The notes under the pieces are model-generated. The model did not search any database. It had not been told where the DNA came from and saw only the letters and a program-made list of their open reading frames with translations. A stretch of 12,690 nt of DNA from assembly GCA_024278415.1 (NCBI GenBank), contig JAJRTI010000373.1, forward strand, positions 1-12,690. Direction: 5' to 3'. This document shows, one piece after another, positions 1 to 12,690 of the stretch (positions are counted from its first letter, which is position 1; the number at the start of each line of letters is the position of its first letter). Both the position numbers and the translations under genes were made by a program. The stretch is from Planctomycetota bacterium (lineage in GTDB: Bacteria; Planctomycetota; Brocadiia; JAJRTI01).

Positions 1-663
1 AATGCCGGTGATATGGGGCGCTGCGAAACTCGTCCCAGTGAGGTTGCGATAGGAGTGGCCCAGCCAGGGAGCGCGCACGTCGGTTCCATGGGCCACGAAG
101 TCGATGCGCTGTCCAGGCCGGTAGACGAAACTGAACTTGTCATCCATGGCCGCGTTGCCTACCGAGATAAGGGAGGCATAGATTGAGGGGAAGCTGGGCG
201 GAGGCACATTGTTCGCAGCGGCGACAAGAATGCTCCCGCCGTAATAGGCCATGTCGGCCAACTCGTGCAAGGGGGCGAAGTACTCATGTCGAGGTGTGCC
301 CAAGCTCAAGTTGACCAAGTCCATGCCGTTCTCGATGGCCCATTTCAGGCCGGCGAGTAAGGTTTCGCCGCTCCCCGTCAGTTGTGCGCCCAGCACCTTC
401 ACGCTGTACAGCTCCGCGTCGGGCGCCAAGTCCTTGATGATGCCCGCGCAAGCCGTGCCGTGGCCGAAGGCGTCGGTAAAGCTGCATGGGCCATACTCCG
501 GCGCGCCTCCTGTGTCCAAGATGTCCACGCCCCCCTTGACACTGCCAGCCACGGCAGGGTGGGAGGCATCGATGCCACTATCGACAACCGCCACGCGGAT
601 GCCTTTGCCTGTGGCTGCGCCCCATGCGTCTTCGCGTGTGTCTATTCTCAGAATGCTCTTCAT
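1..663 (-). CDS. Subtilisin-family (S8) serine peptidase, C-terminus beyond the window
   Basis: The 221 visible residues carry the whole catalytic set of a subtilase. The aspartate is in VVDSGID (D28), the histidine in FGHGTACAG (H68), the oxyanion-hole asparagine in VAAANN (about N152, in a variant of the usual AAGN), and the nucleophile in GTSFAAPH (S212). The frame is open to base 1, so only the end of the domain and any C-terminal extension are missing. There is no signal peptide, propeptide or membrane segment, so the enzyme is probably cytosolic. The wording around the motifs (HGTACAGII, then NLSLGT) recalls the PatA-like and bacteriocin-associated subtilases more than secreted degradative ones; this is judgement, not a search. 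The start at 663 has GGAG four bases upstream. In-frame ATGs at 687 and 711 would add 8 or 16 residues. It is the last visible gene of the minus-strand exporter cluster and follows the GAF gene by 87 bases (39 if started at 711). Substrate unknown. Confidence 0.93.
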   Translation of the reverse strand, partial: MKSILRIDTREDAWGAATGKGIRVAVVDSGIDASHPAVAGSVKGGVDILDTGGAPEYGPCSFTDAFGHGTACAGIIKDLAPDAELYSVKVLGAQLTGSGETLLAGLKWAIENGMDLVNLSLGTPRHEYFAPLHELADMAYYGGSILVAAANNVPPPSFPSIYASLISVGNAAMDDKFSFVYRPGQRIDFVAHGTDVRAPWLGHSYRNLTGTSFAAPHITGI

Positions 664-750
664 TGATCTCCGAATCCTGTAGCGCATCTTGAACTCAATC
701 GTTTCTGGCATAGTCAGAAGAGGTCGAATCCTGGTCCACCCCGGGGCCGC

Positions 751-1689
751 TCACCACGTGAGGCCGCCTGAGGACTGGCCGACCCCGAACATGCCCTGTT
801 GCTTGGAGAGATAAGCACTGACCGCGGCCAGGGTCGCGCGGCAAAGCTCCGCGGCCTGGGGGCCCTTGGCGCAAATGCTCTCGATCTCAGCGGCCAAGAG
901 AAGCGCTTGCTTGTGTGTCTCAGACGCACGGAGCCGTTTCAGCGTCTCGGAAAGGCGAGCCGCTGTGGGAGACATGGCTGCGGTGGGGCCTGCGCCCTCC
1001 TGCGCATCCGCGCCCTTCTCCGCCTGGTCTTTGAGCCCCGCCAGCATGGAGGCCGTCAAGGAGGTAATGGCGCGTCTCTCAACCGCGGCCCCCGCGATCT
1101 TGGCGAACTGCGACAGTAGCTCAATGTCCTGCTGCTCGAATCCTCGACCATCGGTCTTGTTGACCACCTCCAGCACGCCCATCGTGCGCCTGCCAGCGAG
1201 CGCAGGCACGGCGAGAATCGACCGCGTCTGGAACTGGATGGCCTCGCTAATGGACTTGTCCCATTGCTCCGACTTGCCCACGTCTGTCACACACAGGGGT
1301 TGTCCGCTGGCGGCGACGAATCCGGCGATGCCCTGGCCAAGTTTGAGCTTGAACTTCTTGAGTTCTCCTGCTTTCTCGCCATGCACCGCCTCGAAGACCA
1401 GATGCTCCTGATCGTCCGTCACGAGGAGAAGAGAGCCGGCTTCCGCGTGGACCGTTCGGGTGGCCACCGCCACGATAGTATCCAGGAGATCATCGGCCTC
1501 CTCGGACGTGCCGAGGATCCCCATCGCCTCCAGGGTGGTCAGACATGCCTCCAGGCCGATTCGCTCTCCCATGCCCTCGCCCCCCCCCAACTCCTGCCGG
1601 AGAATGGCCACTTGTTCAGTGGCCGACGCCAAAGCTTTCTCAAGTTGTGCGAGGCGCGTCCCAGGGTCGCGCAGGGGCTCAGATTCCAT
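751..1689 (-). CDS. Stand-alone GAF-domain sensor protein
   Basis: A 312-residue soluble protein with no signal peptide or membrane segment. Residues 10-35 look like a short coiled coil. Residues about 62-205 form a GAF domain, a small-molecule-binding fold: AGSLLLV, then GQGIAGFVAASGQP, then VPALAGRRTMGVLEVVNK. NK at 177-178, F184 and D188 fit most of the NKXnFX3DE signature of cyclic-nucleotide-binding GAF domains, with the final E replaced by I. Many bacterial GAF domains of unknown ligand share this, so the ligand is open. The C-terminal 110 residues are mostly helical and Ala/Glu-rich with no recognised output domain, so it may act by protein contact. The start is well supported: AAGGAG at 1697-1702 lies seven bases before the ATG. 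It lies 152 bases after the ABC exporter gene, and that gap shows no terminator or convincing gene. Its GAF domain is clearly related to that of the GAF/HEAT protein at 5092-8814. Confidence 0.88.
   Translation of the reverse strand: MESEPLRDPGTRLAQLEKALASATEQVAILRQELGGGEGMGERIGLEACLTTLEAMGILGTSEEADDLLDTIVAVATRTVHAEAGSLLLVTDDQEHLVFEAVHGEKAGELKKFKLKLGQGIAGFVAASGQPLCVTDVGKSEQWDKSISEAIQFQTRSILAVPALAGRRTMGVLEVVNKTDGRGFEQQDIELLSQFAKIAGAAVERRAITSLTASMLAGLKDQAEKGADAQEGAGPTAAMSPTAARLSETLKRLRASETHKQALLLAAEIESICAKGPQAAELCRATLAAVSAYLSKQQGMFGVGQSSGGLTW
1580..1588 (-). repeat. Nine-base homopolymer (poly-G on the coding strand) inside the GAF gene
   Basis: A run of nine C on the plus strand reads as nine G in the sense direction, over codons 34-37 (Leu-Gly-Gly-Gly). 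It is close to the start of the gene, between the predicted coiled coil and the GAF domain. Loss or gain of one base would put the rest of the protein out of frame. It could be a slippage-prone contingency tract or simply chance in G+C-rich DNA. Confidence 0.9.
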
Positions 1690-1841: not shown

Positions 1842-3647
1842 TCAGGCTGCGGCAACGGCTTCAGCCGCCTGGCGCTCGTAGAGCGAGAAGTATAGCCCCC
1901 GCCGCGCGACGAGTTCGGGGTGGGTGCCACTCTCGACGATGCGGCCTTGATCGAGGACAAAGATCCGGTCTGCATTGACGATCGTAGAGAGCCGGTGGGC
2001 AATCACCAGGATCGTCCGATCGCGCAGCAAGTGGTCGACCGCTTGCTGGAAGAGCATCTCCGTTTGCGTGTCCAGCGCCGAAGTCGCCTCGTCGAGGATC
2101 AGGATTTTGGGGTCTCGCAGCAGCACCCGCGCAATGGCGATGCGCTGGATCTGGCCGCCGGACAGGCCGGTCTCCTGGCTGCCGATCGGCGTGTCGTACT
2201 GCTGGGGGAAGGCCATGATGAAATCGTGAGCCTGCGCGATGCGGGCGGCCCGTTCGACCTCCTCCATGGTGGCCGAGGGTCTGCCGTATTGGATGTTGTG
2301 CAAGACCGTGTCGTGGAACATAAACGGCCGCTGCGTCACCATGCCCACTTGGTCCAGGTAATTCGAGAGGCTGAGCGTTTTCAAGTCGAAGCCGTCGGCG
2401 AAGACCACCCCTTGCGTCGGGTCGTAGAGCCGCGCAGCGAGCTTGGCGATGGTGCTCTTGCCGGACCCACTGGGCCCGCAGAATGCGACCATCGTGTTGG
2501 GCATCACCTCCAGCGACACGTCTTGGAGCACCATCTCGCCAGGCTCGTACTGGAACGACACGTCGTAGAACTCGATGTTGCCTTCGTACCGTGGCAGCAA
2601 GATGGCATTCGGTGCGTCCTGGATTTCTGGCTTCAGATCCCACACGCTGTACACTTGAAGCGCGGCCACGCAGATCTCGTTGGTATTGCGGTAGTACTCC
2701 AGCAGGCGGCCGAGGGGCGCCATGATGCGCATCAGGAACATGTTGAACATCACCAACTGCCCAATGCTCAGGTCGCCCTTGATGATCGCGTGCCCACCGT
2801 ACCAGAAGACGAACGCCGTGGCCACGGTCGATATGGAGCCCACAATCAGTGTGAACAACTGCCCCCACACCATGCCGTCCGCGGAGATCCAGGCGTCTTG
2901 GAGCAATTGGCTGAAGAATCGCTTTCTCTCCATGTGCTCCTGACGGCAGGTTTTGACGACCTGGATGCCGGAAATGAACTCGAAGAAGACATCCTTGATG
3001 CGGATCGCCTGCATGTTGAGCGCTTGCTGTATGGGGGCGAGCTTGTTCGTGAAGAACACGGTGCCGTAGACCCACAGGGGCAGCGCCAACAGGGCGAAAC
3101 ACGCCAACTTGAAATGGACCAGGCACATTAGGGTGACGCCCGCCACCACGTGGATGAGACTGTTGCTGATATCGTCCAGGCTCGTGATGAGGAACCCCTG
3201 CATCTGCGGCAGGTTCGTGTTCTCCGTGTGGGCGATCTGCGCCAGAGGGTTTTGCTCATAAAAGCGGATTGACAGGCGTTGCAGGTGCTCGAAGAACCGC
3301 TTGCGCAGATCGAAGTTGATCCGATTGTTCATGTAGAACGAAATGTACCCCGTCAGGAACCCGTAGAAACACTTGACCACGAACAGCGAGATCATGATGC
3401 CAAAAATGATATTCAGCAGGCGGCTGTCCTTCTGCACGAACACGTCGTCGATGAGGACCTTCGTGAGGAAAGGATCCACCATGGACAGGCCGACTTCGAT
3501 GAGCGTCAGGATGAACATCAGCACGAGGTACGGCTTGTACGGCGTGATGTTGGCGAAGACCCTCTTGAACACGCCCATCTTTTGGGCGAACGACATCTGT
3601 TCGATGTCGGGGGTTTCGATCCGCGCACTGGGCGGGGTCTCGTTCAT
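1842..3647 (-). CDS. ABC exporter, fused membrane domain and ATPase (type I / MsbA-like)
   Basis: A half-transporter of about 600 residues that should dimerise in the inner membrane and export a substrate using ATP. Numbered from the longer ATG at 3656, six membrane segments lie at roughly 43-62, 81-104, 160-181, 184-204, 266-288 and 297-315. The ATPase domain is complete: Walker A GPSGSGKST (394-402), Q-loop Q442, signature LSGGQ (498-502), Walker B ILILDE (518-523), D-loop SALD (526-529) and switch H554. The N-terminus has only about 40 soluble residues, so there is no C39 leader-peptidase domain as in bacteriocin exporters. ATG 3647 is preferred because AAAGGA (3656-3661) lies eight bases upstream. 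ATG 3656 would overlap the HlyD stop as ATGA but has no proper ribosome site. Adjacency to an HlyD-family gene suggests trans-envelope export. Substrate not inferable; lipid, peptide and drug exporters all look like this. Confidence 0.95.
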   Translation of the reverse strand: MNETPPSARIETPDIEQMSFAQKMGVFKRVFANITPYKPYLVLMFILTLIEVGLSMVDPFLTKVLIDDVFVQKDSRLLNIIFGIMISLFVVKCFYGFLTGYISFYMNNRINFDLRKRFFEHLQRLSIRFYEQNPLAQIAHTENTNLPQMQGFLITSLDDISNSLIHVVAGVTLMCLVHFKLACFALLALPLWVYGTVFFTNKLAPIQQALNMQAIRIKDVFFEFISGIQVVKTCRQEHMERKRFFSQLLQDAWISADGMVWGQLFTLIVGSISTVATAFVFWYGGHAIIKGDLSIGQLVMFNMFLMRIMAPLGRLLEYYRNTNEICVAALQVYSVWDLKPEIQDAPNAILLPRYEGNIEFYDVSFQYEPGEMVLQDVSLEVMPNTMVAFCGPSGSGKSTIAKLAARLYDPTQGVVFADGFDLKTLSLSNYLDQVGMVTQRPFMFHDTVLHNIQYGRPSATMEEVERAARIAQAHDFIMAFPQQYDTPIGSQETGLSGGQIQRIAIARVLLRDPKILILDEATSALDTQTEMLFQQAVDHLLRDRTILVIAHRLSTIVNADRIFVLDQGRIVESGTHPELVARRGLYFSLYERQAAEAVAAA

Positions 3648-3652
3648 GGCTC

Positions 3653-4966
3653 TCATCCTTTGTTCAACACCTTGACAATAATGAGATAGCGGAAGGCCTT
3701 CATTCGCTCCGCGTAGATGTCGCCCTTGGCGCTCAGCCCGGGCAAGAGGACGATTTCCTCATCTGGCTTGAGAAACATGGGACGCTTCCGGGGCTTATCG
3801 ACCTTCATGCGGACCTCGTACATCGCCATCTCCCCAATCATTTCGGTCGAGGGGCTGATCTTGAGCACTTCGGCCGGAAACTTCACGTCCTTGTACGCGG
3901 CGAACTCCAGTTTGGCCTTCTGGCCCGTCTTCAGGCGCCGACGTCTCGACTCCTCAACGTAGCCCTTCAGTACGCAGTCGTTGATGTCCGCGGCCACAAA
4001 GAGGGGCTCGGTCAGCTTGGCAAAGCCGCCCGTTTTCGCCACCTCTTTCAGGATCACGCCGTCGATGGGCGACCGGATCTCGCGGTGCTGGATCTCGTCA
4101 CGTTCCGTGGCGGTTCGTCTCGTCAGCTTCTCGATTTCAGTCCGGGCCGCATTGATCTTGAACTCCTGCTTCGCAATGAAGTCCCGCTTGGCCGTAGACG
4201 TGGTGGCCATCGCCAACTCCGCCAGTTTCACCTCCACCTCCGCCTGCCGTATCTGGCTGTCGTACTTCTCCCTGACGAGAGTCAGTTCCCTCTGCGCGAT
4301 CTGCCGATTCGACTCGGCCACTTTGTAGTCTGTCCTGGATTGATTCAACTCCATCTTGGCCACAATGCCATCCTTGACGAGCGCCGCGGTCTTGTCCTGC
4401 TTGCGTTTGGCCTCCATCGCCGTGGCCGTCTCTTTGGCCAGTTTCTGCTTGGCCACTTCCAGCTCCTCGACCTTGCGGGCCCGTTGGGTCGCCAAGGCCG
4501 CCCGGGCCTTGGCCAACTGGAGCTTCTTCTTCGCCAAGGTGTTGTCGTATTCGGACTTCGTCGTCTCCAGTTCTTTCTCCGCCCGTTGCAGTTCATTCTG
4601 CGTCTTTTCCAAGTCCAGCCGAAGTTGCGCCAGCTTGCGTTCGCGATCGCGCACATCCAGCTCCGCCAGCACTTGGCCCTTCTTGATCACGTCGCCCCTC
4701 TTCACGTTCAGCCTGAGAATGGGGCCTTCAATCTTGGCGAAGATGTTCACTTCTTCGGTTGGCGCCATTTTGCCCGTCACGGGGATCTTGACTGCCATGT
4801 CCATGATTAGGCTGCACACCACCGCCCCCACCACCACCAAACCTGTGCCGATGCCCATCGCTTTGGTCATGACCGAAGCCGCGCCCGCGATGTGAAAGTC
4901 GCAGTCGTCCTCGTACTCGATGAATCGGAAACCGATCTTGCGCCTCTCGACTAGGGGCTCACCCAT
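3653..4966 (-). CDS. HlyD-family membrane fusion (periplasmic adaptor) protein
   Basis: The 437-residue partner of the ABC exporter, expected to sit in the inner membrane and bridge the periplasm. Residues 1-35 are cytosolic and charged. One membrane segment spans about 38-58. A first half of a lipoyl/biotinyl-like domain follows (about 66-102, including GPILRLNVKRGDVIKKGQVL). A long Lys/Glu/Arg-rich coiled-coil hairpin covers about 103-290. The second lipoyl half starts at IRSPIDGVI (297-305), and a beta-barrel region runs to the C-terminus. The layout and length are typical of HlyD/EmrA-like adaptors. ATG 4966 has GGAG at 4975-4978, eight bases upstream. The gene follows the GAF/HEAT gene by 125 bases. 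Its stop lies just ahead of the exporter start, and its last codons form that gene's ribosome site, so translation is probably coupled. No outer-membrane TolC-like gene is seen here. Confidence 0.94.
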   Translation of the reverse strand: MGEPLVERRKIGFRFIEYEDDCDFHIAGAASVMTKAMGIGTGLVVVGAVVCSLIMDMAVKIPVTGKMAPTEEVNIFAKIEGPILRLNVKRGDVIKKGQVLAELDVRDRERKLAQLRLDLEKTQNELQRAEKELETTKSEYDNTLAKKKLQLAKARAALATQRARKVEELEVAKQKLAKETATAMEAKRKQDKTAALVKDGIVAKMELNQSRTDYKVAESNRQIAQRELTLVREKYDSQIRQAEVEVKLAELAMATTSTAKRDFIAKQEFKINAARTEIEKLTRRTATERDEIQHREIRSPIDGVILKEVAKTGGFAKLTEPLFVAADINDCVLKGYVEESRRRRLKTGQKAKLEFAAYKDVKFPAEVLKISPSTEMIGEMAMYEVRMKVDKPRKRPMFLKPDEEIVLLPGLSAKGDIYAERMKAFRYLIIVKVLNKG

Positions 4967-5091: not shown

Positions 5092-8000
5092 TCATCGTTC
5101 CTCGGCGTCCGACAGGTCGTCGAGCAACTGGACCACGTTGCGGCGCAGGGTCTCGTCGCTGGTGTTGCGCAGCAATGCTTCCAGCGCGGCTGTGGCCTCG
5201 GAACGGTGGGCCAGGAGATGGCCTCGCAGCAGGTCGCCGGCGCCGGGGTCGCGCCGGCCAAGGTCCGCCACGGAACGCTCCACCGCCAGGGGGTGGAAGC
5301 AGAGCCGTTCGGCCACGGCTCTTGCGAAGGCCGCTCGGCCCTCTTGATCCGATTGCATGAGTCGAGCCAGCCAGCCGATGGCCGCCGCACCCTCGCCAGC
5401 CAGTTCGTCAATGATGGCGCGCTGAGTCGCTTCATCGCCTTGCGACCACACGTCGGCCAGTGCGTCCTTCGCCCGAGAGTTCGTCATGAGGCACAGGGTT
5501 TTCGTGGCCTCGCGGCGCTCAGGCGGGCGAGCGTCCCGGTCGAGAGCCTGGGCGCTAAGGGCGGCCGCGTCCAACAGGCCCATCGCTTCGACCGCCTTGG
5601 CTGCCGCTCGCGCGACGCGGTTGTCCCTGTCGTGCGTTGCGCGAAGCAACTGGTCGGCCACCTGGGCGCTGTCGAACGCCGCGAGGGCCTCGACGGCCGC
5701 GAGGCGCACGGTCCACGATTCGGCGTTCAGGGCGCCGACAATGGCCTCGAGCGCTTCGCGGCTGCCGATTTGCCGCAAGGCCTCGAGGCAGGCAATGCGG
5801 TCTTGGCGATAGCTCGGCGCGGCCGACTCAGATGCCTGTACGCGTGCGGCCAACGTCTTCGCTGCGTGAGTTCCGCCAAGGCGGCCTAGCGCGTGGATCG
5901 TCGCGCGGCGCACGTCCACGGACGCGTCATCGAGCAAGGGCTCGAGTGCGCTGGCATGGCTGGCGCCGCCCACACGCGCGAGCATGCCGGCCAGGCGCGC
6001 CTTCGTCGCGGCCGATTCAGCGCGGCCCAGGGCCTCAATGACCGTGTCCGCGGCCACGCTGCCGATATCCACCAACACGGACTCCGCGAAGTCGCACAGG
6101 AACGGATCGCCTTCGTGGAAGGCCCGCAAGAGATGAGGCGCCGCGGCCTCCCCCAGCTTCAGGCACACCTCCGCGGCCGCGCGACGATACTGCGGCAGCA
6201 GCGCGAGCATCGCCTCCAATCCCTGCTCTCCGATCTCAACAACCGCGCTCCGCGCAGCCTCTGACTCGTCGTAGATCGCCATGAGGTGCGGGATGGCCTT
6301 GGCCGACCGCAGGGCGCCCAAGCCGTACGCACACCAGTGGCGCTTGCGTTCGTCCGTCAGCCCGGCGATGAGCGCGTCTTGCGCCCCGTCGCCGATCGCC
6401 ACCAGCGCGTGCGCGGCCTTTTGCGCCGCGTAGTCGTCGGCCGCGAGCAGAGCGACCAGCGGGCCCACGGACTTGGCCGTGCCCACGCCTGCGATGGCCT
6501 CGATCGCGTCGGTGCAGAAAGGGCCCGGCTTCAGTAGCGGGATCAAGGCGTCTTCTGCCTCCGCCCCCCCAATTTGGCCGATGGCAGCGATGACACTCGC
6601 GGCGATTCTGGGATCATCGATGAACTCGCGCAGCCGGGCGGCCGCGTGTGCGTCGCCCACTGTGCCGAGCGCTTCGAGGGCCGTTCGGCGCACCATGGAG
6701 CTTTTTTCGTCGGCCACCACACCCAACAGCGCCGCCACGCACTCCGTCTCGGCCAATTGGGTTTGCGTGCACAATCGGCCCAGCGACCGTATCGCAGTCA
6801 TGCGCAGCAGGGGGTCGTCGAGCTTATACAGCAACGGCTTCACCGCTTCCGCGCTCGCCGTGTGCCCCAGAGCCTCCGTCGCGCAAAGCCTGACGTCGGG
6901 GCTGGGGTCGCGGTCCATGAGGGCGATGAGTTCTGCAACGGCTTTGCCGGTCTCGCCCAAGGCCTCACACGCGGCCGCCCGCACCGCGAGGTCCGTCTGG
7001 TCAAGCTCGGCCTTCAACCTCGCCAGGGCCTCCGCCTCGCCGAAACGGTACAGGGCCAGATTCACTTCGCAACGCACTGGCGCGTGCTCGTCGTTCGTCA
7101 TCCCTTGCAGCGGCTCGATCGCGTCGCCCGCCCCAAGTCTGGCCAGACCTCGCACCGCGCTCAGGCGCAGGCGCGGGTTCGCGTCCCGCAAGTGCAGCAA
7201 CAGAGCAGACCGCACCTTTTCTCTTGCCGCGGGCGCGTCGCCCGCCAAGAGGCTGAGACTCGTGAGCGTGGCCCCCAAGATGTCCGTGTCCGCCTCGTGC
7301 GGCAGAAGCTCCAGCAGGGGGGCCAAGCCGCAGGGCGCGCCCAGTTCGCCCAGAAGTTGCACCGCTCGCAAGCGGATGAAGTGTTGGCTGTCTCGCAGCA
7401 CGGTGGCCACAATTTGCTCGGCCGCGCCCGCGGGCTTTGCTCGGCCAATCTCATCGAGCGCCGCGCTTCGCGTAGATGGATCTTCAGACCGCAAAGCCGC
7501 AAAGAGATCCTCAGGCGAAGCCGACCTGCCCCAGGGTTCCAGCCTCGCCGCCGCGCTGGCCAGGCCCGCCAGGCCCTGCACGTCCACCACCTTAGCCAGC
7601 GAACCCATGCGCATCATCCCATGGCCATCGGACGCCGCGATCGCCCTGACCACCAGGTCTTCAAGCTCCCGCACGTTGCCTCGCCACAGGCGATTCATGA
7701 AGAACCGCAGCACTTCGTGGTCGACCCCTTTCACGTTCCGGCCCAGGCGGGTGTTGGCCCGTTGGACAAAATACCCCGCCAGGTGAGGAATGTCCTCGGG
7801 CCGTTCCCGGAGTGGCGGCACCTCGGCCACCACCGCACCCCCCTCTTCAAATAAAGAGTTGGGAAGGACCGATGGCGCGTCGTCGGCCTTTGTGACGCGG
7901 CTGGTCCCGGCGAGAATCCGCGCGGCCGCGTCTGGCGCCGCCTGCGCCAGTCTCTGGGCCAATGCCGGCGACAGCGCGGCCACTTCACGCAGGTATACGC

Positions 8001-8814
8001 TGCCCGGGCGCGCCAGCAGGCCCGGCTCGCCCTGCCCGCGCCCGAAAAGCGCGGCCGCGAGGTCGCCCTCACTCGTCTTGTCGCACCGGAGGACGGTGAA
8101 CGCTTCGGACTGGCGCGGCCCAGCTTCGTGGATCGCGTGCGCCAAAAGTGTCTTGCCCACGCCGGGCTCTCCCACCAAGATCACGGGCTTGTCCGAGTGC
8201 CCCAACTCCGCGACTCGGGCCAGCAGCGCCTTCATGGCCGGGCTCTCCCCGACCACACGGTCGCGAAGGCCCAGCAGCTCTTCCAGCCCTTCCTTATTCT
8301 GTTGGACGGTGGCGTACATCCGTGCGTTGCGAATCGCCACGGCGACCTGCTCGGCCACGGCCTCCATCAGCGCAAGCGCGTCCGGACCAAAATCCGGCCC
8401 GTCGGCAGGGTTGAGCACCTGAAGTGCGCCAATCACCCGGCCATCGAGGCGCAGCGGCACCGTGATCATGGCGCGCGTACAGAAGTCTAGTGCGCCATCG
8501 ACCTGCGCCATGTGCCGCGGGTCGCTGTGGGCGTCGCGGGTCACCACCGGCTCACCGTGCTGCACCACCCAACCCGCGATCCCTTCGCCCATGTTGAGTT
8601 CGAACTGCTTGATGGACTCGGCCTTTTCCCCTGTCGCACCCCTGAACACGAGCTTGCCCCGATCCTCGTCCACCAGAATCAAAGAACTGGCCTCTGCGCG
8701 AAGGCCCTCCTGGACCGATGCCAGCACCTGCCGAAACACCACATCAATGTCCAGAGTGGAATGAACCGCAGAGGCGACCCGGAGGATGACCGTGGCGTCG
8801 GGGTTCTGATTCAT
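5092..8814 (-). CDS. GAF / degenerate sigma-54-type AAA+ / HEAT-repeat fusion protein
   Basis: A 1240-residue cytosolic protein. Residues 10-165 are a GAF sensor domain (GEGIAGWVVQHGEP; VPLRLDGRVIGALQVLNP). Residues about 185-395 align with the NtrC-type sigma-54 activator ATPase: VVGESPAMKALL, Walker A GEPGVGKT (215-222), PPLRERPEDIPHLA (333-346) and WRGNVREL (377-384). Key parts are changed: the GAFTGA loop after LFG is absent; the Walker B position reads VYLREV instead of LFLDEI; the usual FREDLYYRL arginine-finger segment reads LFEEGGAVV. ATP may bind, but sigma-54 activation is unlikely. No C-terminal helix-turn-helix follows; instead about 800 residues (430-1230) of PBS-lyase-type HEAT repeats, perhaps twenty, form a binding solenoid (e.g. 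VRRATIHALGRLGG). ATG 8814 is chosen because the promoter at 8885-8913 lies inside the longer frame reaching 9042, and residues before 8814 look non-native. It is the first gene of the exporter cluster, so it may be its sensor or scaffold (inference). Confidence 0.9.
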   Translation of the reverse strand: MNQNPDATVILRVASAVHSTLDIDVVFRQVLASVQEGLRAEASSLILVDEDRGKLVFRGATGEKAESIKQFELNMGEGIAGWVVQHGEPVVTRDAHSDPRHMAQVDGALDFCTRAMITVPLRLDGRVIGALQVLNPADGPDFGPDALALMEAVAEQVAVAIRNARMYATVQQNKEGLEELLGLRDRVVGESPAMKALLARVAELGHSDKPVILVGEPGVGKTLLAHAIHEAGPRQSEAFTVLRCDKTSEGDLAAALFGRGQGEPGLLARPGSVYLREVAALSPALAQRLAQAAPDAAARILAGTSRVTKADDAPSVLPNSLFEEGGAVVAEVPPLRERPEDIPHLAGYFVQRANTRLGRNVKGVDHEVLRFFMNRLWRGNVRELEDLVVRAIAASDGHGMMRMGSLAKVVDVQGLAGLASAAARLEPWGRSASPEDLFAALRSEDPSTRSAALDEIGRAKPAGAAEQIVATVLRDSQHFIRLRAVQLLGELGAPCGLAPLLELLPHEADTDILGATLTSLSLLAGDAPAAREKVRSALLLHLRDANPRLRLSAVRGLARLGAGDAIEPLQGMTNDEHAPVRCEVNLALYRFGEAEALARLKAELDQTDLAVRAAACEALGETGKAVAELIALMDRDPSPDVRLCATEALGHTASAEAVKPLLYKLDDPLLRMTAIRSLGRLCTQTQLAETECVAALLGVVADEKSSMVRRTALEALGTVGDAHAAARLREFIDDPRIAASVIAAIGQIGGAEAEDALIPLLKPGPFCTDAIEAIAGVGTAKSVGPLVALLAADDYAAQKAAHALVAIGDGAQDALIAGLTDERKRHWCAYGLGALRSAKAIPHLMAIYDESEAARSAVVEIGEQGLEAMLALLPQYRRAAAEVCLKLGEAAAPHLLRAFHEGDPFLCDFAESVLVDIGSVAADTVIEALGRAESAATKARLAGMLARVGGASHASALEPLLDDASVDVRRATIHALGRLGGTHAAKTLAARVQASESAAPSYRQDRIACLEALRQIGSREALEAIVGALNAESWTVRLAAVEALAAFDSAQVADQLLRATHDRDNRVARAAAKAVEAMGLLDAAALSAQALDRDARPPERREATKTLCLMTNSRAKDALADVWSQGDEATQRAIIDELAGEGAAAIGWLARLMQSDQEGRAAFARAVAERLCFHPLAVERSVADLGRRDPGAGDLLRGHLLAHRSEATAALEALLRNTSDETLRRNVVQLLDDLSDAEER

Positions 8815-8884: not shown

Positions 8885-8913
8885 ATTGTATAGGAGGGAC
8901 CCGGCACTGTCAA
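8885..8913 (-). promoter_or_regulatory. Sigma-70-type promoter for the GAF/HEAT-exporter operon
   Basis: Read on the minus strand: -35 TTGACA at 8913-8908, a 17-base spacer, and -10 TACAAT at 8890-8885. The -35 is a perfect consensus match and the -10 has one mismatch, with ideal spacing. Transcription would begin near 8878, leaving a leader of about 65 bases to the ATG at 8814. This supports 8814 over any upstream start. Confidence 0.72.
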
Positions 8914-8930
8914 ACTGCCACCGGCCGGCC

Positions 8931-8958
8931 TTGCGCAGGATGCTCCCAGCGATAGAAT
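8931..8958 (+). promoter_or_regulatory. Candidate weak promoter for the beta-helix gene
   Basis: TTGCGC (8931-8936), a 16-base spacer and TAGAAT (8953-8958). The -10 matches consensus at five of six positions, the -35 at only three. The leader to the ATG at 9117 would be about 150 bases and would contain the GCCACGT repeats. Tentative. Confidence 0.3.
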
Positions 8959-9026
8959 GGGGGCAACCATTCGACTTTTCAGGCCGCATCCCCCCCCTCT
9001 GCAAGTGTAATCACTCGCGCTGGGCG

Positions 9027-9095
9027 GCCACGTCCAGCACAACGTGGCGCAAGAACTTGGGCAGGCGGGCCACGTCGCTTCACGCGCAACGTTGC
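9027..9095. repeat. GCCACGT half-sites and palindrome upstream of the beta-helix gene
   Basis: GCCACGT at 9027-9033 is mirrored by ACGTGGC at 9042-9048 across eight bases, and a third copy in direct orientation lies at 9069-9075. A separate perfect 10-bp palindrome GCAACGTTGC sits at 9086-9095, just before the start codon. The arrangement suits an operator or leader hairpin for the plus-strand gene, but no matching regulator is known. Confidence 0.4.
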
Positions 9096-9116
9096 TGCTG
9101 GAGACACAAACACATC

Positions 9117-11912
9117 ATGAAAAAACGCGCCCCCCTACCCCTGCTCATGGCCGTCCTCATGGCCACAAACGCCGGGGCCGCAAGCTACTACGTGTCCCCC
9201 AATGGCGGCGACGCACACACCGGCCGGGGGCCGCAAGCCGCGCAGGCCCTGCGCACGATCCAAGCCGGGGTGGACAAGCTCCTGCCGGGCGACGTGCTGC
9301 TCGTGCGAGGAGGCGTGTATCGGGAGACCGTGGCGTTCCCCCGAAGCGGAGCGCCAGGCAAGCCCATCACGGTGAAGCCGTACAGGCGCGAGAAGGTCGT
9401 CATGACCGGCTGCGAGCCCGTCACCGGCTGGACGCGGCACAAGGGCCGCGTCTGGAAGGCGCCCATGCCCTGGACTCTGGGCACGGGGCGGAACCAGGTC
9501 TTCGCCGGCGGCGAACTGATGATCGAGGCGCGCTTCCCCAACAAACCCGCGCCGGGGCTGGGCATGTACGTGTCCGACCTCTCGCCGCTCTGGCCCACGT
9601 TCGGCAAGTTTTCCATCCCCGATCCGCAGAAGCAGCCGGGCCGAATCGTGAGCAAGCTCCTCGACGGCCAGCCCGACGACTACTGGAAGGGCGCACTCTA
9701 CTACGGCGTGCACTATCAGGGCTGGAGCGCGCAGACGGGAGTCGTCGAGCACTCGAAAGCCGGCGAGATCACCGTGGGCGACCGCACCCGAACGTGGTGG
9801 TTCTCCGGCCCGTACCGCCGCTACAAGCCCGAAGAGGGCCGCGGCATGATCGTCGGCCACATGCACGCGCTCGACCAGCCGGGGGAATGGCACTGGCAGG
9901 ACAACACGCTCTACCTCATTCCCAAAGACGGCGGCCCGCCTGTCAACGTGGAGGCCAAGCGCCGGCAGCTCGCGTTCGACCTGAGCGGCCGCGAGCACAT
10001 CCGCATCGAAGGGCTCCGTGTGCACGCCGCGTCTATGCGGCTCGCGGGCTCCGCCAACTGCGTCGTCGACCGCTGCGACCTCTCCTACATCTCCCACTTC
10101 ACGCGCTTCTACAGCATCGGACAAGTCGAGCACGGCCGCGACACGATCAAATCCGGCGAGACCGGCATCTTCGTGAGCGGCCGGGACAATTACTTTCTGA
10201 ACTGCCGCATTCGTTACAGCGCCGGCGCCGGCTTCTACCTCCGCGGCTACCACCACACCATTCACAACTGCCTCATCGACGAGATCGACTACACGAGCCA
10301 CTACCTCAACGCGATCACCGACGCGGTCTCGGACTTCAAGGACTACGAGAACTTCCTCGTCGGCGGCCACGTGATCACGTTCAACACCATGCGCAACGCG
10401 GGCCGGCACTTCTTCAACTTCTACGGCAACGGCACGAGCTTCGCCTCTCGCGACCGCGCGCCCATGGACTACATGGCCACGCTCTTCGCCCACAACCACC
10501 TATACAACGGCATGCTCCAGACCAAGGACGCCGGCTTCCTCACCGGGTACTACACCAGCGGCGGCACGCTCAACGGCCTGAATTCGCAGGTCGTGTACAA
10601 CGCGATGCACGACTCATACGACATCTTCGCCATGCGCATCCACAAGCTCGGCATCGTGTACCTCGACGCCGGCACGTGCAACGTGGACCTGCACCACAAC
10701 CTGCTCTGGGCCGCGCCCGGCTCGCTTCAGCATGGCATGTGGTTCAACACCCAGTGCGTGGACGTGCATGAGAGCGACAATGTGTTCCATCCCAACTTCA
10801 CGCGCACCAGCGCGGAGCTGACGCCCAAAGACTTCCCGGAGGGCGAGCCCTTCCGCTTCGGCCACGACTTCGACAGCCCGCCGCCGCTCCCGCAGTGGCC
10901 GCAACTCGAAAGGCGGCGGATCGAAGCGGAACAGTGCTCCGCGCGGTCGGAAGGCGTTCGCACGACTGATCCGACTGATCCGACTGATCCGACTGATCCG
11001 ACTGATCCGACGGGCCTGACGGGCCTGACAGACGGCGCATGGTTCGCACTGGGCGACGTCGACCTCGACGCCGGCTGGCAGTCCGTCGTCATGCGCTTCG
11101 CAAGCGGCGTGAAGGCCATGAACACCGACCGCGCGGCCCGCGCAAGGCCGCGCCACAAGAAGCCCACCGACCCGCTCGTGCTCGAAGCCATCATCAACGA
11201 CGGCGTCGCAGACGGCATCCGCAAGCAGTGGACGCTCCTCTACAACATCCGCGACGGCCAATGGGTGCGCTTCAACCAAGTGCCCCTTGGCAAGGGCTAC
11301 CGGCGCTTCCGTGTCATCTACGGCGTGGACAGCGCATCCCCGCGGTGGCTGGAGGTGCACCTCGACCGCGAGGACGGGCCGCTTGTGGGCCGCGTGGATT
11401 TGCCCAAGACCGATCGGCCCCGCGGCGGCAGAATTCAGCTCTACGGCCAGGCGACCGGCGCGATCTCAGCGGACGCGGCCGGCACGCGCGATGTGTTTGT
11501 CGTGTTCAAATCCAAGGATGCCAAGGCGGTGGGCGAGTTCGCGTACTTCCGGTTCGAGCAGTACCGTGGCGCCATCCCGTTGCAGAAGAACGAAGTGAAG
11601 CTGGAGTTGCGCGTCGGAGCGAAGGACGGCGAGAAGATCGGCGAGTTCTATCCGCGTTTCACAGGCGGCGCGGACGTGTTCAAGGCCATGGTCGCCAAGT
11701 TGGAGCCCGCGTCCGGCAAGCAGCCGCTCTTCGTCGTCGTGCGTTCGGCCATGGACGCGCCCGTGGGCGCGATCGATTGGCTCAGCCTAGAGAAGGCGAA
11801 GCAGCCGATCGACATGAGCGGCATCGGCCTGCCCCCGCGGCGCGACGCGGCCGGGCGCATGGTGTTCCCACAGCCCACCCACCGGCCCCGCGCGCGGCCG
11901 GCGGACAAATAG
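9117..11912 (+). CDS. Secreted right-handed beta-helix protein with CBM6-like modules
   Basis: A 931-residue exported protein, probably acting on or binding polysaccharide. ATG 9117 begins a clear signal peptide: MKKR, a hydrophobic stretch, and cleavage near NAGAA (about 18-22). SYYVSPNGGD and the following LRTIQAGVDKLLPGDVLLVRGGVYRE (about 23-70) are the usual opening of DUF1565/polysaccharide-lyase-like beta-helices. Coils continue to about 560 (NCRIRYSAGAGFYLRG; HNCLIDEIDYTSHYLNAI). Catalytic residues cannot be assigned, so lyase, hydrolase or binding roles remain open. Residues about 598-895 are CBM6-like: RIEAEQ, GAWFALGDVDLDAGW, then a complete inner unit (QWVRFNQVPLGKGYRRFRV, LEVHLDREDGPLVGRV, FRFEQYRG), then TGG and AIDWLSLEK. 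A tandem TDP repeat sits near its start. The nearest ribosome-site candidate, GGAG at 9100-9103, is 13 bases away, so initiation may be weak. The frame ends at TAG 11910-11912, but coding continues in frame beyond it. Confidence 0.92.
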   Translation: MKKRAPLPLLMAVLMATNAGAASYYVSPNGGDAHTGRGPQAAQALRTIQAGVDKLLPGDVLLVRGGVYRETVAFPRSGAPGKPITVKPYRREKVVMTGCEPVTGWTRHKGRVWKAPMPWTLGTGRNQVFAGGELMIEARFPNKPAPGLGMYVSDLSPLWPTFGKFSIPDPQKQPGRIVSKLLDGQPDDYWKGALYYGVHYQGWSAQTGVVEHSKAGEITVGDRTRTWWFSGPYRRYKPEEGRGMIVGHMHALDQPGEWHWQDNTLYLIPKDGGPPVNVEAKRRQLAFDLSGREHIRIEGLRVHAASMRLAGSANCVVDRCDLSYISHFTRFYSIGQVEHGRDTIKSGETGIFVSGRDNYFLNCRIRYSAGAGFYLRGYHHTIHNCLIDEIDYTSHYLNAITDAVSDFKDYENFLVGGHVITFNTMRNAGRHFFNFYGNGTSFASRDRAPMDYMATLFAHNHLYNGMLQTKDAGFLTGYYTSGGTLNGLNSQVVYNAMHDSYDIFAMRIHKLGIVYLDAGTCNVDLHHNLLWAAPGSLQHGMWFNTQCVDVHESDNVFHPNFTRTSAELTPKDFPEGEPFRFGHDFDSPPPLPQWPQLERRRIEAEQCSARSEGVRTTDPTDPTDPTDPTDPTGLTGLTDGAWFALGDVDLDAGWQSVVMRFASGVKAMNTDRAARARPRHKKPTDPLVLEAIINDGVADGIRKQWTLLYNIRDGQWVRFNQVPLGKGYRRFRVIYGVDSASPRWLEVHLDREDGPLVGRVDLPKTDRPRGGRIQLYGQATGAISADAAGTRDVFVVFKSKDAKAVGEFAYFRFEQYRGAIPLQKNEVKLELRVGAKDGEKIGEFYPRFTGGADVFKAMVAKLEPASGKQPLFVVVRSAMDAPVGAIDWLSLEKAKQPIDMSGIGLPPRRDAAGRMVFPQPTHRPRARPADK
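10963..11026 (+). repeat. 9-bp tandem repeat inside the beta-helix gene
   Basis: Five exact head-to-tail copies of CGACTGATC (10963-11007) are followed by two copies of a related unit, GACGGGCCT (11009-11026). The unit is a multiple of three, so the frame is kept. It encodes a Thr-Asp-Pro run followed by Thr-Gly-Leu units. Each main unit contains GATC. It falls in the CBM6-like region between the first strand (RIEAEQ) and GAWFALGDV, where a surface loop is expected. Confidence 0.95.
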
Positions 11913-11930: not shown

Positions 11931-12690
11931 ATGGCGAAGCGGCCGCGGCCGGTCTTCGCCGCGACTCGCCTAACGGCCGCGCCGGTGATCGACGGCCGGG
12001 TCGGCGAGCGGGCCGGCGCCGGACGCGAGATGGTCCTCGCCGAGTCATGGGACGGCGCGCCCAGCGCGGGCTTGCCGAGCAAGGCGTGGGTCGGGTACGA
12101 CGACAACGCGCTGTACATCGCGGCCAAGCATTCGGTCAAGAACCCCAAGCAACTCCAGATCGCGGGCTACAAGTGGGGCGCGACCGACGCGATGGAGGTC
12201 GCGATCCAAGACAGCTTTGCGGCGACTCCCGGCCCGATCCTGAACCTGTACGGATGGCCGGACGGCCATTTCGTCAGCACGGACCAAGCCGGCGCGCCGG
12301 CCGACGTGGTCGCCCGGCTCGGCCGCGCGGTGGCTTACAAGGCCGCGGTCACTCCCGCTGGCTGGTCCTGCGAGTGGCGCATTCCCTTCGCCGCGTGCGG
12401 CTTCACGCCGAAGACCGCGCCGCTGCTCTCCTTCAACCTGGGCGTGCGCAAGGCCGCGAAGCGCGCCTGGGTGATTTGGCGCGGCGCCGGCGTCCCGACC
12501 TACGTGGCCAACAAAGCCGGCATGCTCGCGTTCCCGGCCGAGTTCGCCGCGCAAACCAACCCGCCCAAGGAACAACTCGACGTCTGGCTCGACGCGGCGG
12601 ACCCCGCGACCATCGAGAAGGACGCCGCCGGCCTCGTGTCCGCGTGGCTCGACAAGAGCGGCAAGGCCCGGCACGCGCGGCAGAGCCAAG
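11931..12690 (+). CDS. CBM9-like plus LamG-like region, 3' end beyond the window
   Basis: An open frame of 253 codons running off the window. Residues about 9-205 look like a CBM9-type sugar-binding domain: TRLTAAPVIDGRVGE, AWVGYDDNALYIAAKHS, DAMEVAIQD, then CEWRIPFAACGF and FNLGVRKAAKRAWVIW. From about 215 the sequence LDVWLDAADPATIEKDAAG, continuing with SAWLDKSGKARHA, matches the opening of LamG/concanavalin-like modules common in secreted PVC proteins. The nominal ATG at 11931 has no ribosome site and no signal peptide follows, although such modules normally work outside the cell. It shares the frame of the preceding gene, so it is more likely the distal part of one protein cut by the TAG at 11910 than an independent gene. 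If independent, it is a cytosolic oddity or has lost its secretion signal. Confidence 0.8.
   Translation, partial: MAKRPRPVFAATRLTAAPVIDGRVGERAGAGREMVLAESWDGAPSAGLPSKAWVGYDDNALYIAAKHSVKNPKQLQIAGYKWGATDAMEVAIQDSFAATPGPILNLYGWPDGHFVSTDQAGAPADVVARLGRAVAYKAAVTPAGWSCEWRIPFAACGFTPKTAPLLSFNLGVRKAAKRAWVIWRGAGVPTYVANKAGMLAFPAEFAAQTNPPKEQLDVWLDAADPATIEKDAAGLVSAWLDKSGKARHARQSQ

Follow-up and report, generated by a model that had tools for sequence, protein, structure and literature searches.

What can a protein do that joins the GAF and ATPase (AAA+) domains of a sigma-54 activator to a HEAT-repeat solenoid of some 800 residues is the question raised by one gene in the 12,690-nucleotide stretch of DNA analysed here (the window; contig JAJRTI010000373.1, assembly GCA_024278415.1, from a Planctomycetota bacterium). 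Its product, referred to below as the fused protein, is made of the following parts, numbered on the window with residues in brackets:

5092..8814, minus strand: the fused gene as a whole, encoding GAF, degenerate sigma-54-type AAA+ and HEAT solenoid (1240 residues)
8332..8754, minus strand: GAF domain (residues 21-161; Pfam)
7810..8262, minus strand: sigma-54-activator-type AAA+ core (residues 185-335; Pfam, above cut-off, at 188-335, and structure prediction)
8149..8172, minus strand: Walker A, GEPGVGKT, intact (residues 215-222; alignment)
8017..8031, minus strand: site of the deleted loop 1 (L1), which carries GAFTGA (residues 262-266; alignment and model)
7984..7995, minus strand: Walker B, YLRE, with Arg276 for the aspartate and Glu277 retained (residues 274-277)
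7921..7926, minus strand: site of the deleted loop 2 (L2), or pre-sensor-1 insertion (junction of residues 297 and 298; alignment and model)
7843..7863, minus strand: arginine-finger segment, with Pro318 and Glu324 instead of both arginines (residues 318-324)
7621..7809, minus strand: AAA_lid_14, with sensor-2 Arg382 retained (residues 336-398; Pfam, alignment)
5095..7512, minus strand: HEAT-repeat solenoid where an activator has its DNA-binding tail (residues about 435-1240; ten HEAT_2 stretches by Pfam)

The fused protein is very probably not a sigma-54 activator and, judging from its residues, probably does not hydrolyse ATP in the normal way, while the chances that it binds nucleotide are about even. 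Just short of even odds, our tentative reading is that a former GAF-type sigma-54 activator has turned into a cytoplasmic ligand-responsive scaffold, whose HEAT arm would hold a partner from an export pathway.

Pfam, sequence and fold agree on the domain order proposed by the original prediction, a GAF domain followed by a sigma-54-type AAA+ domain, and the predicted AAA+ core is compact and nearest to NtrC1 both by sequence and by fold. Its motifs were compared with those of 122 relatives, all selected for resemblance to the AAA+ domain of the fused protein: 94 domains recognised at E<=1e-5 in 94 of the 119 other listed protein matches (25 yielded none) and 28 from genome loci, among which L103 duplicates L085. 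Motif names were placed on positions by this alignment, apart from the roles of the Walker B glutamate, the switch asparagine and the arginine finger in bacterial enhancer-binding proteins (bEBPs), which are given in the portion of PMC7175178 available. According to the same portion, L1 and L2 of bEBPs make the contacts to sigma-54 and to promoter DNA. In the fused protein, about 10 residues including GAFTGA are deleted at L1, the literal motif being present in 116 of the relatives (the exceptions are P0059, P0117, P0109, L081, L082 and L086), and a further 13 residues are deleted at L2. The model agrees on both counts, as helix 249-257 gives way to strand 271-276 with no L1 insertion, and helix 283-295 leads into strand 298-304 with no L2 insertion. 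The earlier reading had reported the missing GAFTGA loop, a persisting Walker A, arginine at the Walker B aspartate position and an altered arginine-finger segment, all of which hold against the alignment, and had overlooked the loss of L2; nor does structure prediction relocate intact motifs elsewhere in the domain.

The catalytic residues have changed just as markedly. Walker B has both aspartate and glutamate in 122/122 relatives, and both arginine-finger positions are arginine in all of them, although this last placement rests on sequence alignment, the model having a predicted local distance difference test (pLDDT) score below 50 over residues 308-318. The switch asparagine position is arginine in the fused protein (Asn in 104/122 relatives, Asp in 14, Ser in 4) and the sensor-1 asparagine position is serine (Asn in 104/122, His in 15, Ser in 3). 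On the side of what is kept stand the P-loop Lys221 (lysine in 120/122 relatives) and the lid with its sensor-2 arginine (arginine in 122/122). Set beside a sigma-54 bEBP, the fused protein therefore has the AAA+ fold and lid and the Walker A lysine and lacks the GAFTGA loop, the Walker B Asp-Glu pair, the two arginine fingers and a C-terminal helix-turn-helix (HTH). With arginine for the Walker B aspartate and no arginine fingers, the usual turnover of ATP is very unlikely, whereas the retained P-loop, Glu277 and sensor-2 arginine leave nucleotide binding possible; with L1, L2 and the HTH absent, neither contact with sigma-54 nor promoter selection is to be expected.

Behind the lid, the DNA-binding tail had been described as replaced by about 800 residues of HEAT repeats, and ten HEAT_2 stretches and an all-helical model bear this out. 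Residues 397-1240, folded alone because a joint alignment pushed the HTH tails of relatives onto HEAT columns, were modelled as 51 helices and no strand, with tandem two-helix repeats across most of the C-terminal part as in HEAT-repeat proteins; its matches are to generic solenoids, karyopherins at the top. No HTH model matched the fused protein, a negative that carries little weight where Pfam is concerned, since among the six closest intact relatives it recognises HTH_8 in L105 alone, barely above cut-off, and misses the HTH in the other five. An HTH is nevertheless unlikely because the HEAT repeats start about 35 residues past the lid and reach the stop codon, leaving little space. No fused homologue bearing an HTH was seen in the searches described below. 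Some genuine bEBPs also lack an HTH. The C-terminal tails of the six relatives themselves (L104-L109) are short and conserved, and possibly form a divergent Fis-type HTH.

The fused protein might instead be a transcription regulator that works without sigma-54, like the NtrC of Caulobacter or Rhodobacter or VpsR, its HEAT arm or a partner contacting DNA or RNA polymerase. We regard this as quite unlikely: the proximity of the HEAT repeats to the lid speaks against an HTH, even if Pfam is a poor witness on that point; the solenoid matches of the HEAT part are generic ones, led by karyopherins; and loss of the Walker B aspartate and arginine fingers is not described for NtrC or VpsR in the part of PMC10274813 available.

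Whether these losses reflect re-use or mere decay can be judged from their distribution. Among the 69 AAA+ positions that are near-invariant (at least 95% invariant in the 122 relatives), the fused protein retains 9/12 in the P-loop half and 13/15 in the lid, compared with 6/17 around L1, 5/19 over the Walker B-sensor 1 stretch and 1/6 at the arginine fingers. Taken together, P-loop and lid keep 22/27 and the loop and catalytic middle 12/42 (Fisher p 2.1e-5, a guide only, as the segments were picked after viewing the alignment and positions within one domain are not independent). Identity to L104-L109 points the same way, with 27-31% in the middle, 36-39% in the P-loop half, 34-42% in the lid and 35-40% in the GAF domain. 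Losses that hit the sigma-54 and catalytic part and spare P-loop and lid fit re-use better than random decay. A decaying gene, in which the AAA+ part is a freely drifting remnant and only GAF and HEAT parts, or nothing, matter, would account for an orphan protein and for the 30/42 near-invariant residues lost from the middle. It would not be expected to leave 1240 codons free of stops, to spare P-loop and lid, to place both deletions at L1 and L2 with the predicted fold intact, or to preserve a promoter-like site upstream; third-position GC is moreover 0.77 in the GAF domain, 0.82 in the AAA+ part, 0.81 in the HEAT part and 0.75-0.86 in the four downstream genes. Decay is, on this evidence, distinctly improbable. 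The GC figures (0.75/0.49/0.81 by codon position for the whole gene) also bear on an artefact of assembly, by which a GAF-AAA gene would have been joined in frame to a HEAT gene. That the protein is known from one contig only would suit such a chimera; the join is in frame, codon-position GC is alike on either side, and the AAA+ part is already degenerate, so that a normal activator and a normal HEAT protein would not yield the fused protein. A chimera is thus highly improbable.

The losses of loops, catalytic residues and DNA-binding tail, coming together with the gain of a HEAT arm while P-loop, lid and fold are kept, would gain in weight from relatives with the same architecture. The fused protein is currently a single protein known from a single contig. 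A protein search with residues 1-430 gave 364 matches, among the best 120 of which only the window's own protein (P0001) bears HEAT domains, with scoring confined to the 7987 candidates that had most words in common, so that a distant fused relative might stay hidden. Scans of genome contigs and viral contigs gave no relative of the fused protein. By tblastn, 750 plasmid and 12 phage records matched, at no place over 80% of the query, and the listed rows (30 plasmid, 6 phage) fall within query residues 4-451, the GAF-AAA part. Matches were found in 60 of 900 genomes, namely 2/240, 4/149, 0/118, 37/195 and 17/198 in the phyla of loci titled Chthoniobacterales, Edaphobacter, Zixibacteriota, Anaeromyxobacter and Nitrospirae (E<=1e-38, or 1e-36 in the last set; 2-5 candidates scored per genome), Planctomycetota and several other phyla lying outside these sets. 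Every listed match in the 900 genomes ends by query residue 450 and none reaches the HEAT part, which, with no known positive among the genomes and few candidates scored in each, speaks for rarity of the fusion and not for its absence. In 16 further genomes, GAF and/or AAA matches occur in 8/8 (E<=1e-20) and a GAF-only match in 1/8 (E<=1e-30). Of 23 loci read in detail (L081-L103), 22 match the AAA+ part, with at most 99 residues left in frame beyond the match; the loci read exclude rows without a locus, including the long frames G1002, G1062 and G1110. The closest GAF-AAA proteins in the genome searches belong to the phylum of L002 (210 bits, 37% identity over residues 9-395).

By sequence, the best match of the GAF domain in the Protein Data Bank is the cAMP-bound 5w10 (1.2e-19), followed by cyclase and phosphodiesterase GAF domains, and in sequence it resembles GAF domains of the cyclic-nucleotide type. 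A GAF-GGDEF protein, L089, in the genome of the Anaeromyxobacter-titled locus L062 has a GAF domain 41% identical to residues 16-172 of the fused protein.

As to what the fused protein might serve, the genes that follow it on the same strand offer a suggestion, the fused gene being the first of a run in which the HlyD, ABC exporter, second GAF and subtilase genes come after it:

8885..8913, minus strand: sigma-70-like promoter, TTGACA-17-TACAAT (11/12 matches; consensus match only)
3653..4966, minus strand: HlyD-type membrane-fusion protein, 125 bases downstream of the fused gene
1842..3656, minus strand: MsbA/HlyB-like ABC exporter (transmembrane and nucleotide-binding domains), with a 4-base overlap with the HlyD stop
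751..1689, minus strand: second GAF protein of 312 residues, after a 152-base gap from the ABC gene
1..711, minus strand: subtilisin-like S8 peptidase, after a 39-base gap from the GAF gene, truncated by the contig end

The promoter-like site lies 70 bases upstream of the start codon of the fused gene, an ATG at 8814. At the 9/12 threshold, two such sites were found compared with a mean of 1.1 in shuffles, and a site of at least 11/12 occurred in 0/60 dinucleotide shuffles of the window. A longer TTG start, favoured by the list of open reading frames (ORFs), is disfavoured by this site; no clear Shine-Dalgarno sequence was found upstream of the ATG. Control of the run from sigma-54 promoters was rejected, with 8 sites against 6.9 expected by chance.

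The second GAF protein is related to the GAF domain of the fused protein (32% identity over 161 residues, E 4e-24). A single close relative of HlyD was found, P0122, at 81% identity on a separate 12310-base JGI contig, beyond which nothing among 113 matches is better than E 1e-15. The N-terminal stretch of HlyD ahead of the membrane helix (IGFRFIEY.DDCDFHIAGAASV) differs from that of P0122 at one residue and is a candidate docking peptide. The ABC exporter has seven relatives (P0235-P0241) at 50-57% identity, the others among the best 120 of 3246 matches being at most 40% identical when the match spans 80% or more of the query; it belongs to a small distinct subfamily (P0234-P0241). That subfamily appeared in 0/477 genomes (0/288, 0/64, 0/45, 0/80) at E<=1e-150, none of them a known positive. 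A contig scan for the exporter was dominated by the general motif DEATSALD, 80 of 590 loci being kept at 30-37% identity, and all 329 plasmid matches fall below 60% identity (33-36% in the six listed). HlyD, the ABC protein (25 of 187 matches listed) and the peptidase gave no listed NCBIfam match at cut-off.

The exporter is the client that these neighbouring genes suggest, and a GAF domain ahead with a HEAT arm behind makes a ligand-responsive scaffold the simplest reading of the fused protein. In such a scaffold, a small molecule at the GAF domain would alter the arrangement of the AAA+ part, which may still bind nucleotide and serve as a structural or oligomeric hub, and the HEAT arm would hold an export partner, be it the N-terminus of HlyD, the ABC exporter itself, the other GAF protein or the cargo. 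The original prediction had likewise proposed an activator re-used as a scaffold or switch, possibly for the downstream exporter; the pattern of losses favours re-use, whereas the link to the exporter is one of gene order on one contig, and that the fused protein serves the exporter is possible and somewhat doubtful. A bolder version, which we consider unlikely, would place the fused protein in a new AAA+ pseudoenzyme class, as an activator minus sigma-54 contact, hydrolysis and DNA binding that acts as a signal-gated secretion hub on which HlyD and the ABC protein dock at the HEAT repeats under cyclic-nucleotide control. Several points weigh against the scaffold. By fold, the GAF domain is nearer to the GAF domains of PtsP than to the cAMP-bound one, and the HEAT model was built from a single sequence with a mean pLDDT of 68.8. 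The persistence of Glu277 and sensor-2 Arg382 sits uneasily with a fully dead site, which need keep neither, and arginine at the Mg-side aspartate could abolish nucleotide binding entirely. Within a single operon, gaps of 125 and 152 bases would be long, and no fused homologue turned up in the proteins, contigs, plasmids, phages and genomes searched to back either the changes or the neighbourhood.

Sensor, NTPase, scaffold and a subtilase as protease effector could also make up a conflict or defence switch. PADLOC matches an RtcR-type AAA (E 1.9e-29), HEAT-ARM_XIII (E 1.3e-20) and the subtilase (E 9.7e-21), and in the available part of PMC7159879 HEAT and other repeats figure as scaffolding domains of NTPase-based conflict systems. 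These matches are to generic domains and single-gene models only, and the same holds for mad3/mad8, which the ABC protein matches. Neither HlyD nor the second GAF protein has a match in PADLOC, and the ABC exporter with HlyD points to export. We regard a defence role as very unlikely and prefer the scaffold. Should relatives confirm that reading, the fused protein would show a transcription motor becoming a post-transcriptional switch, and would provide a natural loop-less AAA+ core for asking what purpose a P-loop serves without hydrolysis.

Two further frames lie on the opposite strand of the window:

8886-11912, plus strand, likely ATG at 9117: divergent gene, probably for a secreted protein (CBM6, 63.3 bits, cut-off 28.9)
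11931-12689, plus strand: following ORF, left open by the contig end (CBM9 below threshold, E 0.0092)

The divergent CBM6 protein also has a sub-threshold beta-helix match and a run of Thr-Asp-Pro repeats at 10965-11009.

Among known systems, the fused protein comes closest to GAF-type sigma-54 activators of the NifA/FhlA kind, with which it shares a GAF domain followed by AAA+ and lid; in the eight best rows from the set of 198 genomes, identity to it is 31-37% within residues 8-450. The six of these that were read and aligned (L104-L109) keep GAFTGA, the switch asparagine, the Walker B aspartate and both arginine fingers in 6/6 cases, all of which the fused protein lacks. Where the fused protein has its HEAT arm, five of them have a tail of 71-78 residues beyond the matched region, which in L105 extends into the tail; by eye, the tails of those five resemble the HTH_8 of L105. 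The six give the best picture met of the ancestral state, not proof of origin. Compared with the AAA+ domains of NtrC1 (1ny5/1ny6) and PspF, the fused protein is without either insertion loop and has its catalytic residues replaced. In the run as a whole, subtilase and ABC exporter stand together as QhpE and QhpF do (the maturation protease and efflux ABC transporter of quinohemoprotein amine dehydrogenase), the subtilase of the qhp operon cutting a peptide leader in the cytoplasm ahead of export by the ABC transporter, according to the accessible part of PMC7876137. Unlike qhp, the scanned ORFs of the window include no radical-SAM or dehydrogenase gene, the contig ending within the subtilase, and since this fragment scores 104.8 bits against the QhpE equivalog of NCBIfam, under its cut-off of 165, the likeness is one of analogy only. 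No open-licence paper in PubMed Central was found that joins sigma54, GAFTGA and HEAT repeat or describes this fusion. The absence of L1 and its GAFTGA is shared with Caulobacter NtrC, which has an eight-residue L1 deletion, and with Rhodobacter NtrC and VpsR, in which GAFTGA is also absent; these proteins have lost contact with sigma-54 and are reported active at sigma-70 promoters (all from the available part of PMC10274813). The fused protein goes beyond what is described there in that L2, the Walker B aspartate and the arginine fingers are gone as well and HEAT repeats stand for the tail. Activators lacking GAFTGA are thus already known, and the novelty lies in the additional losses and in the fusion to HEAT repeats.

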